Assembly: GCA_027450185.1 (NCBI GenBank) | Contig: DAIDKF010000008.1 | Location: forward strand, 1-64,000 | DNA from: Granulicella sp. | GTDB taxonomy: Bacteria > Acidobacteriota > Terriglobia > Terriglobales > Acidobacteriaceae | DNA: 64,000 bases | Direction of reading: 5' to 3' | Shown: positions 41,454 to 44,842 of the stretch, in pieces | Layout: every line of letters starts with the position of its first letter | How positions within the stretch are numbered: the stretch's first letter is position 1 | The notes under the pieces: model-generated | Databases searched by the model: none | What the model was told of the DNA's origin: nothing | Seen by the model: the letters and a program-made list of their open reading frames with translations, nothing else | Program-made: the position numbers and the translations under genes

Positions 41454-42245
41454 CTATTGGTCGTCGTGCAGTTCCGTGGCCTCAGCGATCACGGCTAAGA
41501 CCTGAGTATCTGCATCGCCCACGAGCAGCGATTGCATGGCTCGGCCCACGAGCAGCAGGACCGGAGCTGGCCCGCATTTCAGGTGCGTTAACCCATCCAA
41601 CTGCGTGGCGACCCAACTCTGACGCGCAGTAGCCGCATGCGAGATGGCGCAGCAGGCGGCGTTCTTCGAAACGCCTGCGTTCCGAAGTTCGCGTGCGATC
41701 CTCGCCATGTCTCGTCCTGGCATGTAGACGACCAGCGTAGCATCGTCTGGAAGCGAACCGCTCCACACCGGCGCAGGATCTTTTCCATCGGCATGATGGC
41801 CCGTGCAGAAGATGAGCTTGCTCGCACTCTTGCGATCCGTGAGGGGCAACGCGAGCGCTGCGCCTGCAGCGAGCGCTGCCGTCACTCCCGGCACCACTTC
41901 AAACTTCACGCCTGCGGCTCGGAGCGCAGCAATCTCCTCGCCGGCGCGCCCAAAGACCAGTGGGTCTCCACTTTTGAGGCGCACGACCGACTGGCCTTCG
42001 TGCACTGACTCGATCATGAGCGCATGAATGCCTGCCTGGGTGATCCGCGGCCGCCCACACCGCTTGCCGACGCTCGTCACTAACGCGTGACGATGCACAA
42101 GGTGTAGCACCTCATCCGGCACCAAGTCATCATGCAGCACGACATCTGCGGTTTGGAGCAAGCGCACCGCGCGCACCGTCAGCAGTTCCGGATCGCCAGG
42201 CCCTGCACCTACCAGATACACTGTGCCCTTCTGCGCCGTCGTCAC
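41454..42245 (-). CDS. cobA: Uroporphyrinogen-III C-methyltransferase
   Basis: The 263-residue protein has the SAM-dependent tetrapyrrole methylase motifs: VYLVGAGPGDPELLTVRAVRLLQTADVVLHDDLV, the glycine-rich GKRCGRPRITQAGI region, VVRLKSGDPLVFGRAGEE and PGVTAALAAGAAL. It makes precorrin-2 for siroheme. Its start overlaps the precorrin-2 dehydrogenase stop by 4 bp. In E. coli both are fused in CysG; here they are separate genes. The siroheme feeds the upstream-encoded reductase. Confidence 0.93.
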   Translation of the reverse strand: MTTAQKGTVYLVGAGPGDPELLTVRAVRLLQTADVVLHDDLVPDEVLHLVHRHALVTSVGKRCGRPRITQAGIHALMIESVHEGQSVVRLKSGDPLVFGRAGEEIAALRAAGVKFEVVPGVTAALAAGAALALPLTDRKSASKLIFCTGHHADGKDPAPVWSGSLPDDATLVVYMPGRDMARIARELRNAGVSKNAACCAISHAATARQSWVATQLDGLTHLKCGPAPVLLLVGRAMQSLLVGDADTQVLAVIAEATELHDDQ

Positions 42246-42892
42246 TGGGCAATCCCGTCTGCCGGCAAAAAGCCATGCTCACGCGCATGCTGGCGTGCTC
42301 GCAGGCGGGAAGGGCACTCCGCAAAGCCGCAGACCTCGCGCTGCGCGAGTTCATGAAGGAGCAACTTTCTCTCCTCACTGAGTGGCTCGGCAGCAGTTAT
42401 CTCGCGCCGCAGTCGTCCCAGTTCCATTAGCCACTCGCCGGTGTCGAGCGGCAACAGCGCATTAATTTCCTTGCGCAGTCGCTGCGCCAGTGCCGGGCTC
42501 TCGCCCGCGGTAGAGATTGCAATCTGTAGCTCACCTCTGCGCACGACGCTCGGAAAGTAATAGTCGCAGAACGGAGGGTCGTCAACCACATTGCAGAGAA
42601 TATTCGCCGCACTGGCCTCTGCATACACCGCGCGATTGACCGCTGCTGTAGCCGTTCCAGCGATTGCGAGGAACGCTCCCTCCAGATCGCCCGTGCGGTA
42701 GTCACGCCGCTTCCACGTAATGTCGCCACTTGCGGCCCAGGTTTGCACGCGCGGCAACGCGTCGGGAGCGATGACGGTGACCCTCGCCTCCGCGATCAGC
42801 AAGCTCTCGATCTTCAACTCCGCAATGTTCCCTGCGCCTACCACGACGCAGGGCCGAGCTGCCAACTTCAGAAAGATTGGGAACAAACTCAT
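42242..42892 (-). CDS. Precorrin-2 dehydrogenase/sirohydrochlorin ferrochelatase (CysG N-terminal type)
   Basis: The 216-residue protein opens MSLFPIFLKLAARPCVVVGAGNIAELKIESLLIAEARVTVIAP, the NAD-binding fold of CysG-N/Met8p, and has FLAIAGTATAAVNRAVY-A and ILCNVVDDPPFCDYYFPSVVRRGELQIAISTAGESPALAQRLR. It oxidises precorrin-2 and may insert iron to give siroheme. GAGNIA deviates from the usual GGGxVA. Nine base pairs separate it from the reductase stop. Confidence 0.92.
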   Translation of the reverse strand: MSLFPIFLKLAARPCVVVGAGNIAELKIESLLIAEARVTVIAPDALPRVQTWAASGDITWKRRDYRTGDLEGAFLAIAGTATAAVNRAVYAEASAANILCNVVDDPPFCDYYFPSVVRRGELQIAISTAGESPALAQRLRKEINALLPLDTGEWLMELGRLRREITAAEPLSEERKLLLHELAQREVCGFAECPSRLRARQHAREHGFLPADGIAQ

Positions 42893-42901
42893 AGGCTCTC
42901 C

Positions 42902-44629
42902 TCAACCAACATTGGTCGGAACGCGTCCGGGTGAGGGATCACGTTCGACGGGCTCCACGACGGCACCTGCAAGCTGCGCGCGGAGGTCCTCATCGCTGGT
43001 GCGCCGGAAGTATGCACGCAGACTCTCGTTTGGGCTACGCCGCTTCAAATATTCACGCAGCAGGCGCTCGATCGCTTCGGGGCACTCTTCTGCAGTTGCA
43101 CGGAATCCAATCTGCCGGGCGATTCCAGCATGCTGGCCCACGGCTCCTCCGACGCAAAAATAGAACGCATCGACCATCTGCCCGTCTTTCTTGAGCTTCT
43201 TGCCTTCGAGGCCGATGTCGGCGATCCAGCTCTGTCCGCAACTATTTGTACAGCCGGTTACGTGGAGTCGCAGTTGCTGATTGAACTCGGGTAATCGCTC
43301 CTCCATCTCGCCGACAAGCCACTTTGCGAATCCCTTGGTCTCCGCAATCGCGAGCTTGCAGAACTCCGTTCCAGTACAGGCGATTGCGCCGCGATAAAAC
43401 ACCGAGGGCTCCACTTGCAATCCCAGCGCGGAAATCTTCTCCACCAACTCCTGAACCTTGGCGTTGGGGATATTCACCAGCACAATATTCTGCCCAATCG
43501 TGGCACGCAGATGGCCGTCGCCGTACTCTTCACTCAGGCTCGCGAGCGTATGGAGTTGCTGCGGATTCAGGCGCCCATTGAGGACTGTAGTGCCGACGTA
43601 GCTCAGCCCCTGCTGACGCTGCTGGTGCACGCCAACGTGGTCGCGATAGATATCCTCTGCAACTGGTCCTTCCTCGCAGGGATCGAAGGTAAAGCCGAGC
43701 TTTTCCTCAATAGCTGCAAGCATCTTCTCAGCAGTCCACTCGTGGCGCAAGAACAGATACTTCAACCGTGCATGAGTGCGGCTTTCGCGCAATGCATCCT
43801 GGGCGCGGAAGATCTCGCAAACGGCGCGCACCGCAGCCAACGCCTTGTCCTGCGGGATGAACGCATTCAATCGCACGGCAAGATGCGGCTCTGCTGACAG
43901 CCCGCCGCCGACGCGAATGCTGTAACCAACCTCCTCCTTGCCATCCTTCACGCGCTTCAGCCCGGTCAAGCCTACGTCGTTGATCTCGGGAAAGCTGCAC
44001 CAGATTGGGCAGCCGGTCACGCTCACCTTGAACTTGCGGGGCAGGTTGAAGAACTCGGGATTGCCGGTCAGCATCTGCGCTACCTGCACAGCCAGCGGCG
44101 ATGCATCGAACAGTTCATGGCCGTCCAGCCCCGCGAGCGGGCAGCCCGTGACATTGCGCGCCACGTCGCCGCAGGCCCCCTTCGGGCTAAGGCCAACCGC
44201 AGTCAACTCCTCGATGACTTGCGGCAGGGCATCGATCGTCAACCAGTGCCACTGAATGTTCTGGCGCGTTGTAATGTCGGCTACACCGCGGGCATACTTC
44301 TCGGTCATGTTCGCAATCGCGTGCAACTGTTTCGCAGTCAGCAGGCCGTTGGGCAGGCCGATGCGCATCATATAGTAGTCGCTGGCTTTGCCCTCGCCGC
44401 CTTTGCCGCCGGTGACGCCGAGACCGTCGCCCTGGGTGTAGATTCCCCACCATTTAAAGTAGAAGCTGTCCCACTCGGGAAGGACGCTGGAACGGCCTTC
44501 CCGCGCAAACTGCTGCACCTCGTTCCATGCGTTCCATGGGTTCTTCTCGCGCTTCAGCCGCTCAGACCTCTGTGCCTTGGTTTCTTTTGCTGCAACGTTA
44601 CTTGTACCCGTCTTAACTACGTCGCTCAC
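42902..44629 (-). CDS. nirA: Ferredoxin-dependent sulfite/nitrite reductase (siroheme, 4Fe-4S)
   Basis: The 575-residue protein has duplicated ferredoxin-like halves and siroheme/4Fe-4S ligands ACTGTEFCKLAI (C-x5-C) and TGCTNSCGQ (C-x3-C); substrate-pocket stretches TTRQNIQWHW and NVTGCPLAG are typical of the NirA/SirA family, which includes both nitrite and sulfite reductases. I choose GTG 44629 (GGAG 6 nt upstream); the TTG at 44641 is less likely. The downstream genes make siroheme. The Cys-codon-rich attenuator upstream argues for sulfite reduction in cysteine synthesis. No nitrate reductase or nitrite transporter gene is nearby. Confidence 0.9.
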   Translation of the reverse strand: MSDVVKTGTSNVAAKETKAQRSERLKREKNPWNAWNEVQQFAREGRSSVLPEWDSFYFKWWGIYTQGDGLGVTGGKGGEGKASDYYMMRIGLPNGLLTAKQLHAIANMTEKYARGVADITTRQNIQWHWLTIDALPQVIEELTAVGLSPKGACGDVARNVTGCPLAGLDGHELFDASPLAVQVAQMLTGNPEFFNLPRKFKVSVTGCPIWCSFPEINDVGLTGLKRVKDGKEEVGYSIRVGGGLSAEPHLAVRLNAFIPQDKALAAVRAVCEIFRAQDALRESRTHARLKYLFLRHEWTAEKMLAAIEEKLGFTFDPCEEGPVAEDIYRDHVGVHQQRQQGLSYVGTTVLNGRLNPQQLHTLASLSEEYGDGHLRATIGQNIVLVNIPNAKVQELVEKISALGLQVEPSVFYRGAIACTGTEFCKLAIAETKGFAKWLVGEMEERLPEFNQQLRLHVTGCTNSCGQSWIADIGLEGKKLKKDGQMVDAFYFCVGGAVGQHAGIARQIGFRATAEECPEAIERLLREYLKRRSPNESLRAYFRRTSDEDLRAQLAGAVVEPVERDPSPGRVPTNVG

Positions 44630-44667
44630 GGCATTCTCCAATCATTCTCGGAATATGGTTTCCGCAG

Positions 44668-44698
44668 AAAACAAAAGCCCACGACTTGATTCGTGGGC
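44668..44698 (-). terminator. Attenuator terminator before the sulfite/nitrite reductase gene
   Basis: Perfect 8-bp stem GCCCACGA / TCGTGGGC, loop ATCAAG, followed by TTTTGTTTT. It lies between the leader peptide stop and the reductase start, in the sense direction. Its 5' arm is also complementary to leader RNA (TTGTGG with CCACGA), so it can be broken by an alternative fold. Confidence 0.8.
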
Positions 44699-44764
44699 AC
44701 TCGGGGTAACTCTCAGACTTTGCTTATCCAGCGTTCAACAAGCAGCAGCGTCCGAGACCACAAG
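44691..44764 (-). promoter_or_regulatory. Candidate antiterminator pairing
   Basis: Leader codons 13-17 (44764-44752) contain TTGTGG and CTCGG, which can pair with CCACGA (44696-44691) and CCGAG (44704-44700): 6 + 5 bp around a 1x3 internal loop. This pairing uses the terminator 5' arm, so the two folds exclude each other. Confidence 0.6.
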
Positions 44765-44800
44765 GCCGGGACATGTACAACAGGCTGCGCTGTGTATCAT
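44735..44800 (-). CDS. Cys-rich leader peptide of the sulfite/nitrite reductase operon (21 aa)
   Basis: A 21-codon frame starts MIHSAACCTCPG, with Cys at positions 7, 8, 10 and 21 (all TGT), and ends in TGA at 44737-44735. AGGA lies 6 nt before the ATG; an in-frame ATG two codons upstream (44806) falls at the predicted transcription start and could serve as a leaderless start. Four Cys in 21 residues, a terminator 36 bp downstream, and an antiterminator that uses the coding sequence make this a classic attenuator arrangement: stalling at Cys codons should let the operon be read. I know of Cys-rich leaders in mycobacteria and other actinobacteria; this acidobacterial one is inferred from sequence only. 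Confidence 0.78.
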   Translation of the reverse strand: MIHSAACCTCPGLVVSDAAAC

Positions 44801-44813
44801 TTTCATTCCTACA

Positions 44814-44842
44814 AGCATATCGTTACTCGGCGTGGAGGGCAA
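44814..44842 (-). promoter_or_regulatory. Promoter of the leader/reductase operon
   Basis: On the minus strand: TTGCCC (44842-44837), 17-bp spacer, TATGCT (44819-44814). The predicted start is near 44807, which leaves practically no 5' UTR before the leader peptide. Confidence 0.6.

Follow-up and report, generated by a model that had tools for sequence, protein, structure and literature searches.

What sets the expression of the siroheme reductase operon that lies on the minus strand of the window, i.e., the whole 64,000-nt stretch of DNA analyzed here? The original prediction placed a promoter, a 21-codon leader with Cys codons at positions 7, 8, 10, and 21, and a terminator ahead of the reductase gene, all of which are indeed present at those minus-strand positions, and proposed that a sulfite reductase operon is attenuated at the level of transcription through the Cys codons. 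This is still the best reading of the locus, and both the Cys codons and the terminator proved to be conserved. In all likelihood, the comparisons reported below describe a real, conserved, cysteine-specific transcription attenuator with a presumed sensing, stalling, and read-through switch. As to its kind, a ribosome-mediated attenuator of the trp type that reads the charging of Cys-tRNA is very probable. Sequence comparison supports the Cys leader, a start close to the promoter, the terminator, a 1:2 hairpin within the genus, and co-variation between leader and terminator arm across the family; the transcription start, the Cys-tRNA signal, the stall, and the changed read-through are what we infer beyond these.

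The reductase operon and its upstream region

The window belongs to a genome of 2.17 Mb that is 54.4% complete and has Granulicella and other Acidobacteriaceae as its nearest named relatives. Three genes on the minus strand make up the operon: a NirA-type siroheme reductase with the sulfite reductase-type motif PRKFK (42902–44641; Pfam NIR_SIR, PF01077, and NIR_SIR_ferr, PF03460) and, named from domain models, a siroheme synthase of the CysG N-terminal type (42242–42892) and a uroporphyrinogen-III C-methyltransferase (CysG C-terminal/CobA; 41454–42245). The reductase probably starts at GTG 44629, after GGAG at 44639–44636, rather than at the listed TTG 44641.

The best solved relative of the window reductase is NirA of Mycobacterium tuberculosis (1zj8, 311.9 bits). 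The relationship is distant, but the two enzymes have the motif PRK(Y/F)K in common, with PRKYK in 1zj8 and PRKFK in the window, while the plant nitrite reductase 3b0h has PRKWN at the same position. Lys at the last position of this motif presumably marks sulfite reductases and Asn nitrite reductases. The residue is Lys in 141 of 143 orthologues (the motif was unread in the other two) and Asn in all 14 nitrite-type paralogues of the family genomes, and the PRKFK motif therefore supports the assignment of the gene behind the Cys leader to the sulfite type, as the original prediction had it. The Acidobacteriaceae NirA would thereby be marked as a sulfite reductase, although nitrite reductase is among its closest named models. 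Among the NCBIfam models, CobG scored just above its cut-off (236 vs. 234.8 bits); the NirA-family and ferredoxin-nitrite reductase models gave more bits than CobG, yet fell below their own cut-offs. CobG was dropped as the identity of the reductase because the latter adjoins two siroheme genes and resembles M. tuberculosis NirA.

The promoter of the window (44814–44842, minus strand) comprises TTGCCC (44842–44837), a spacing of 17 nt, and TATGCT (44819–44814). It matches the consensus at 8 of 12 positions and was not listed by a consensus promoter scan that asked for at least 9 of 12. The leader ORF (44735–44806, minus strand) encodes MKMIHSAACCTCPGLVVSDAAAC in 23 codons, from an ATG at 44806–44804, which begins 7 nt after the −10 box, to a TGA at 44737–44735. 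The start proposed earlier, and with it the count of 21 codons, corresponds to the in-frame ATG at 44800–44798. The Cys codons and the frame are present as described, but the start is probably the ATG at 44806, two codons further upstream, and the ORF is probably leaderless, with a transcription start deduced from the −10 box. The tandem Cys codons TGT TGT (codons 9–10; 44777–44782, minus strand), which are kept as TGTTGT in the genus, form the predicted stall site, and a third Cys codon follows at 44773–44771. Beyond the leader stop, an intrinsic terminator (44668–44698, minus strand) is built from GCCCACGA, ATCAAG, and TCGTGGGC, followed by TTTTGTTTT, with an 8-bp stem and a loop of 6 nt. 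The terminator scan found two sites in 801 bases over both strands (mean of shuffles 0.9). A search of the window with Rfam 15 at gathering score returned a tRNA only, and no riboswitch or T-box.

Conservation of leader, start, and terminator

We gathered 148 loci with reductase orthologues at 52–100% identity (30 among the matches listed, 18 named, and 100 more); six fragmentary matches of at least 52% identity, also among the matches listed, were left outside this set. Removal of three near-duplicates (L024, L037, and L042) and of two loci that lack upstream sequence (L045 and L097) left 143 upstream regions. A short ORF with at least three Cys codons within ten codons was found in 125 of these regions, and 89 of the 143 reached at least four. 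Dinucleotide-shuffled upstream regions reached at least three in 126 of 715 cases (18%) and at least four in 24 of 715 (3%); the corresponding counts were 16/143 and 3/143 on the opposite strands, and 3/14 and 0/14 upstream of the nitrite-type paralogues. At a few loci (L005, L036, and L048, as judged by eye), the automatic choice of the leader settled on a different frame or start, and the counts include these uncorrected. Among the loci collected, L035 carries the leader of Granulicella mallensis.

Within the genus, all 28 genomes match the reductase, one of them to a paralogue only, and an in-frame TGTTGT inside a short ORF occurs at all 26 loci that have upstream sequence, some of these ORFs holding only two Cys codons. 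By eye, a terminator follows the TGTTGT ORF at the genus loci. Given the frequency of leaders with at least three Cys codons in the shuffled regions, the leader of the window taken alone is not beyond chance. The recurrence in 125 of 143 orthologous regions, together with the terminators and the unbroken conservation of TGTTGT at the genus loci, therefore amounts to more than chance, and the conservation of the Cys codons that the original prediction called for is borne out. The counts nevertheless overstate the number of events because related sequences are not independent.

Inspection by eye of the 18 regions that fell below the Cys criterion placed eight behind another gene, six with a less pronounced leader (one or two Cys codons, or three across 11 codons) and a terminator, and four with no leader seen. 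In some genera (L021, L022, L029, L079, L083, and L094), nirA lies behind another gene and has no leader directly upstream. At the other extreme, the leaders upstream of nirA in L086, L091, L095, and L132 hold seven to nine Cys codons in ten. They finish in a tail resembling GAGRLLT, which at the DNA level is similar to the 3′ arm of the terminator in this clade. Much of the terminator 3′ arm recurs within the leader in one clade, e.g., as CACTGGCG in L122.

A terminator-like hairpin lies between the leader stop and the reductase gene at 119 of the 125 leader loci, and all 119 scores exceed the 95% point of base-shuffled regions. At 117 of these loci, the stem begins 21–68 nt past the leader stop. 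In 11 genus sequences, the stem is invariant, which leaves no compensatory changes to score there, and it also appears in their RNAalifold consensus.

Promoters resembling that of the window, mostly with 17-nt spacing and often with TTGAC and TANNNT, precede most of the leaders. They were picked blind to start codons, and 106 of the 125 leader loci had a good promoter (score of at least 8.5). The distance from the −10 box to an in-frame ATG or GTG is 5–8 nt at 77 of these 106 loci and 5–12 nt at 99. The spacing of in-frame ATGs peaks at 6 nt (33 loci) and 7 nt (29 loci), compared with no more than six loci for each spacing between 15 and 30 nt. With an in-frame start codon this close behind the −10 box, transcription is expected to begin on the start codon or a few bases before it. 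Leaderless genes have been predicted in Acidobacteria before, at a mean of 13.3% over the three genomes covered in that report (PMC3160421).

At 119 loci, the leaders contain 422 UGU and 204 UGC codons, compared with 120 UGU and 1161 UGC codons in the reductase genes that go with them. Leaders thus favor the very codon that the reductase genes avoid, as would be expected if slow decoding matters, although the needs of RNA pairing could add to this preference.

Candidate antiterminators and the proposed switch

RNAalifold applied to the 11 genus sequences yielded a 1:2 hairpin (anti-antiterminator; UGUCC.GGCC....GGUC..GGACG; 44749–44773, minus strand) that holds the third Cys codon. Of its cells, 97% are paired, and the pair between columns 17 and 26 occurs as AU in five sequences, GC in three, GU in two, and is broken in one. 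Both columns are second codon positions, and the peptide therefore changes while the pair stays. Five of 500 shuffles reached the covariation score; none of six slid versions did. The hairpin is thus supported for these 11 genus sequences, and its presumed role would be to release the terminator during fast translation.

As proposed antiterminator, the structure of lowest energy with a ribosome stalled on either of the Cys codons 9 and 10 pairs GGCCTTG.GG with CC.CGAGTGCC. Its 5′ side, region 2 (GGCCTTGTGG; 44758–44767, minus strand), comes from the minimum free energy (MFE) fold of this stalled state, and its 3′ side, region 3 (CCCCGAGTGCC; 44696–44706, minus strand), from the same fold and from pairing within the genus. 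Region 3 shares the initial 3 nt with the terminator stem and also overlaps the lower extension of that stem. Across the 11 genus sequences, 87.9% of cells in the 2:3 pairing are paired, with two compensated pairs and two pairs broken in 5 of 11 sequences; the controls are weak, with 49–54 of 500 shuffles doing as well and 403 of 500 for the pair types. The pairs of the antiterminator proposed earlier, TTGTGG with CCACGA and CTCGG with CCGAG, are present, and a duplex that contains them reaches −15.9 kcal/mol. This antiterminator has 84.9% of cells paired in the same sequences (paired-cell control 30/500), but two of its 11 pairs are gone in most genus relatives, as only two of the 11 sequences retain U23-A92 and four retain C29-G84, and the compensatory changes looked for in its stem did not appear in any of the 11 sequences. 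We set it aside on these grounds; the alternative 2:3 pairing seems to fit slightly better, but the choice is not firm. When the ribosome was placed at the third Cys codon, the fold gave a different pairing, GUGG with CCAC, which is part of the helix proposed earlier.

The lone window sequence does not serve as proof of a switch. Its full-length MFE structure retains the terminator in every stalled state tried, and pairing of its terminator arm is 0.38 in the stalled state vs. 0.48 for shuffled leaders, which puts it among the weaker cases. Over 117 loci of the family, with the stalled state modeled as a ribosome on the Cys cluster, mean pairing of the terminator arm is 0.565, compared with 0.444 for shuffled leaders; it is 0.204 when the ribosome has reached the stop codon and 0.332 without a ribosome. 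At the same 117 loci, the duplex of a leader with its own terminator arm averages −14.18 kcal/mol and that with a swapped arm −11.85 kcal/mol, and none of 2000 permutations was as good. Permutation within clusters of protein divergence gave 0/2000 at a 25% cut, 43/2000 at 20%, and 712/2000 at 15%; the advantage is marginal in the 20% clusters, in which own duplexes average −14.19 and swapped ones −14.95 kcal/mol, and it vanishes at 15%. By co-variation and by the stalled-state ensemble, a mutually exclusive antiterminator on the 5′ arm of the terminator is thus indicated family-wide.

We propose that RNA polymerase would start on the leader start codon or immediately ahead of it, which would give the first ribosome a leaderless message to load onto. 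When Cys-tRNA is ample, the ribosome would pass the Cys codons, and region 2 would be covered or held in the 1:2 hairpin; with region 2 unavailable, the terminator would form and the sulfite reductase/siroheme operon would be off. When Cys-tRNA is scarce, the ribosome would stall at the tandem UGU codons and thereby open the 1:2 hairpin, and the freed region 2 could then pair with region 3, located at the terminator base, allowing read-through into nirA and the two siroheme genes. A sulfite reductase operon is a target in keeping with a cysteine signal.

Other explanations would place the function of the leader elsewhere. The closest described system precedes the same gene, is leaderless, and is called translational in the texts that mention it (PMC4633059, PMC9031893, PMC13236596), and the leader could accordingly be a mycobacteria-like, cysteine-responsive upstream ORF that gates the ribosome-binding site of nirA, with the hairpin being secondary. 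Many genus cysD leaders that have no obvious terminator, some of them with a hairpin that by eye reaches the Shine-Dalgarno sequence, would suit such a mode of control. A translational switch, however, needs no U-tract, and a U-tract terminator follows nearly every nirA leader at a restricted distance from the leader stop (119/125 loci, 117 of them at 21–68 nt); in addition, the 5′ arm of this terminator co-varies with the leader. We consider control at the level of translation improbable at nirA. That the leader encodes a functional Cys-rich micropeptide, binding thiols or metals or acting in redox binding, with the hairpin as its ordinary terminator and read-through feeding nirA, appears very unlikely. 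Although CCxC-like clusters recur among the leaders and leader peptides are described as able to act in trans (PMC7298713), the peptides vary between clades outside their Cys residues, genus changes that alter residues keep the RNA pairs, and the preference for UGU over UGC would be irrelevant to a peptide.

A short ORF that carries a few Cys codons by chance ahead of an ordinary terminator would hardly stand out in the window alone, where at least three Cys codons in ten are not rare by the measure of the shuffled regions. It is barely conceivable for the family, in which the leader is conserved in 125 of 143 regions with a leaderless start and a regular terminator placement, whereas no leader with at least four Cys codons occurs at the 14 paralogues and none was found at 30 cysS loci. 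Attenuation of transcription by a ribosome on the Cys codons is the reading that we retain in what follows.

Known systems and further targets

The attenuator of the trp operon combines a leader peptide rich in codons for the product, translated from a Shine-Dalgarno site, with alternative 1:2, 2:3, and 3:4 hairpins. The window element would differ from it by having Cys instead of Trp codons, by its leaderless start, and by a proposed antiterminator that overlaps the base of the terminator only. Closer in content are the polycysteine ORFs of mycobacteria. A 2005 prediction gave mycobacterial cys operons Cys leader peptides that lack conserved terminators (Seliverstov 2005; PMC1262725), leaderless Cys-rich ORFs were described before cysA2 and nirA in 2015 (Shell 2015; PMC4633059), and control by such a leaderless short ORF is cited as cysteine-dependent in M. 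smegmatis (PMC9031893). The 2020 study by Canestrari is cited as showing these ORFs to be cysteine-responsive attenuators, and the citing texts speak of translation (PMC9031893, PMC13236596). As described in these sources, the mycobacterial ORFs resemble the leaders reported here in being leaderless, Cys-rich, and located before sulfur assimilation genes, including nirA; compared by description, the mycobacterial system is translational and has no conserved terminator, whereas the leaders here come with an intrinsic terminator and a co-varying candidate antiterminator and belong to another phylum. In Rhodobacterales, the element uORFC-8-2 before cysS was proposed to act by ribosome-mediated transcription attenuation, with tandem Cys codons and stems that end in a U run (PMC8632094). 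It shares with the window element the tandem Cys codons in a short ORF and the U-run stems, but it controls cysS in alpha-Proteobacteria, whereas the window element precedes nirA, and none of 30 genus cysS loci (26 above the family cut-off) had a promoter-anchored leader of at least two Cys codons.

Among the literature matches listed, with subscription journals mostly outside them, we found no Cys attenuator in Acidobacteria. Cys leaders before nirA are already on record for mycobacteria (PMC4633059). What is new, as far as the literature shows, is the combination of a leaderless leader, an intrinsic terminator, and a sulfite reductase in Acidobacteriota, and not the kind of element itself; Lyubetsky 2014, on sulfur-linked genes, and Lopatovskaya 2010 could hold earlier predictions, going by how they are cited in PMC4833913. 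The element would join a leaderless start with terminator/antiterminator control, a pairing absent from the literature found. If true, it would also provide a cysteine sensor for a major soil phylum in which, as far as the text of a 2010 terminator survey goes, almost no predicted attenuator had an assigned function (PMC2965389).

The predicted leader design recurs in the sister family, at many genus cysD genes, and, beside four of these, at an outer-membrane gene. In the sister family of the order, where reductase orthologues have 43–52% identity, poly-Cys leaders were seen, at four loci by eye and without a null, at all eight loci with an upstream region (L279–L284, L286, and L292); L285 is cut inside the gene and stands outside this count. 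In a more distant family, one locus (L195, 34% identity), whose gene is interrupted by one stop, combines RCCCSCPC with a terminator. None of the other 16 out-of-family loci, most of which are weak or partial homologues, reaches four Cys codons.

No match to PF01507 (cysD) was found in the window's own, 54.4% complete genome. Upstream of cysD in the genus (L208–L231), a leader with at least three Cys codons occurs in 12 of 24 regions, a raw count without a null. By eye, four of these leaders have a terminator (L209, L218, L224, and L226), and none is obvious at the other leader-bearing cysD loci. In a group of near relatives (L208, L210, L212, L214, L216, and L225), the cysD leader is reduced to peptides like MKDTSFRVARCSKLTEKC, with Cys as the last codon and no obvious terminator.

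We are evenly divided on a broader reading, according to which sulfur assimilation in Acidobacteria would form a regulon of leaderless Cys attenuators with no sulfur-sensing repressor or activator. In this regulon, the sulfite reductase, cysD-cysN-cysH, and an outer-membrane gene for a predicted organosulfur importer would each have a poly-Cys leader of their own, with terminators at some and hairpins at the ribosome site at others; the ribosome would bind the 5′ AUG as it emerges from RNA polymerase, without a Shine-Dalgarno sequence, and the origin of the system would be either separate from that of the mycobacterial one at this gene or much older.

The divergent gene beside each of the four terminator-bearing cysD loci has its own Cys leader and terminator, again without a null. 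These were located at L306:6775–6849 on the minus strand and at L308:10768–10851 on the plus strand, and are also present in L209 and L224. In L306 and L308, the product of the divergent gene is an outer-membrane beta-barrel protein that includes a CarboxypepD_reg domain (PF25183, PF13620), and the Cys leader of this gene suggests import of a sulfur compound. The leader could thus be a handle for finding sulfur genes whose role has no name yet, such as this outer-membrane protein beside cysD. The operon in L306 comprises, by names taken from domains, cysD along with genes for a CysN-type GTPase, for a second PAPS_reduct protein (cysH), and for a TauE-type exporter.
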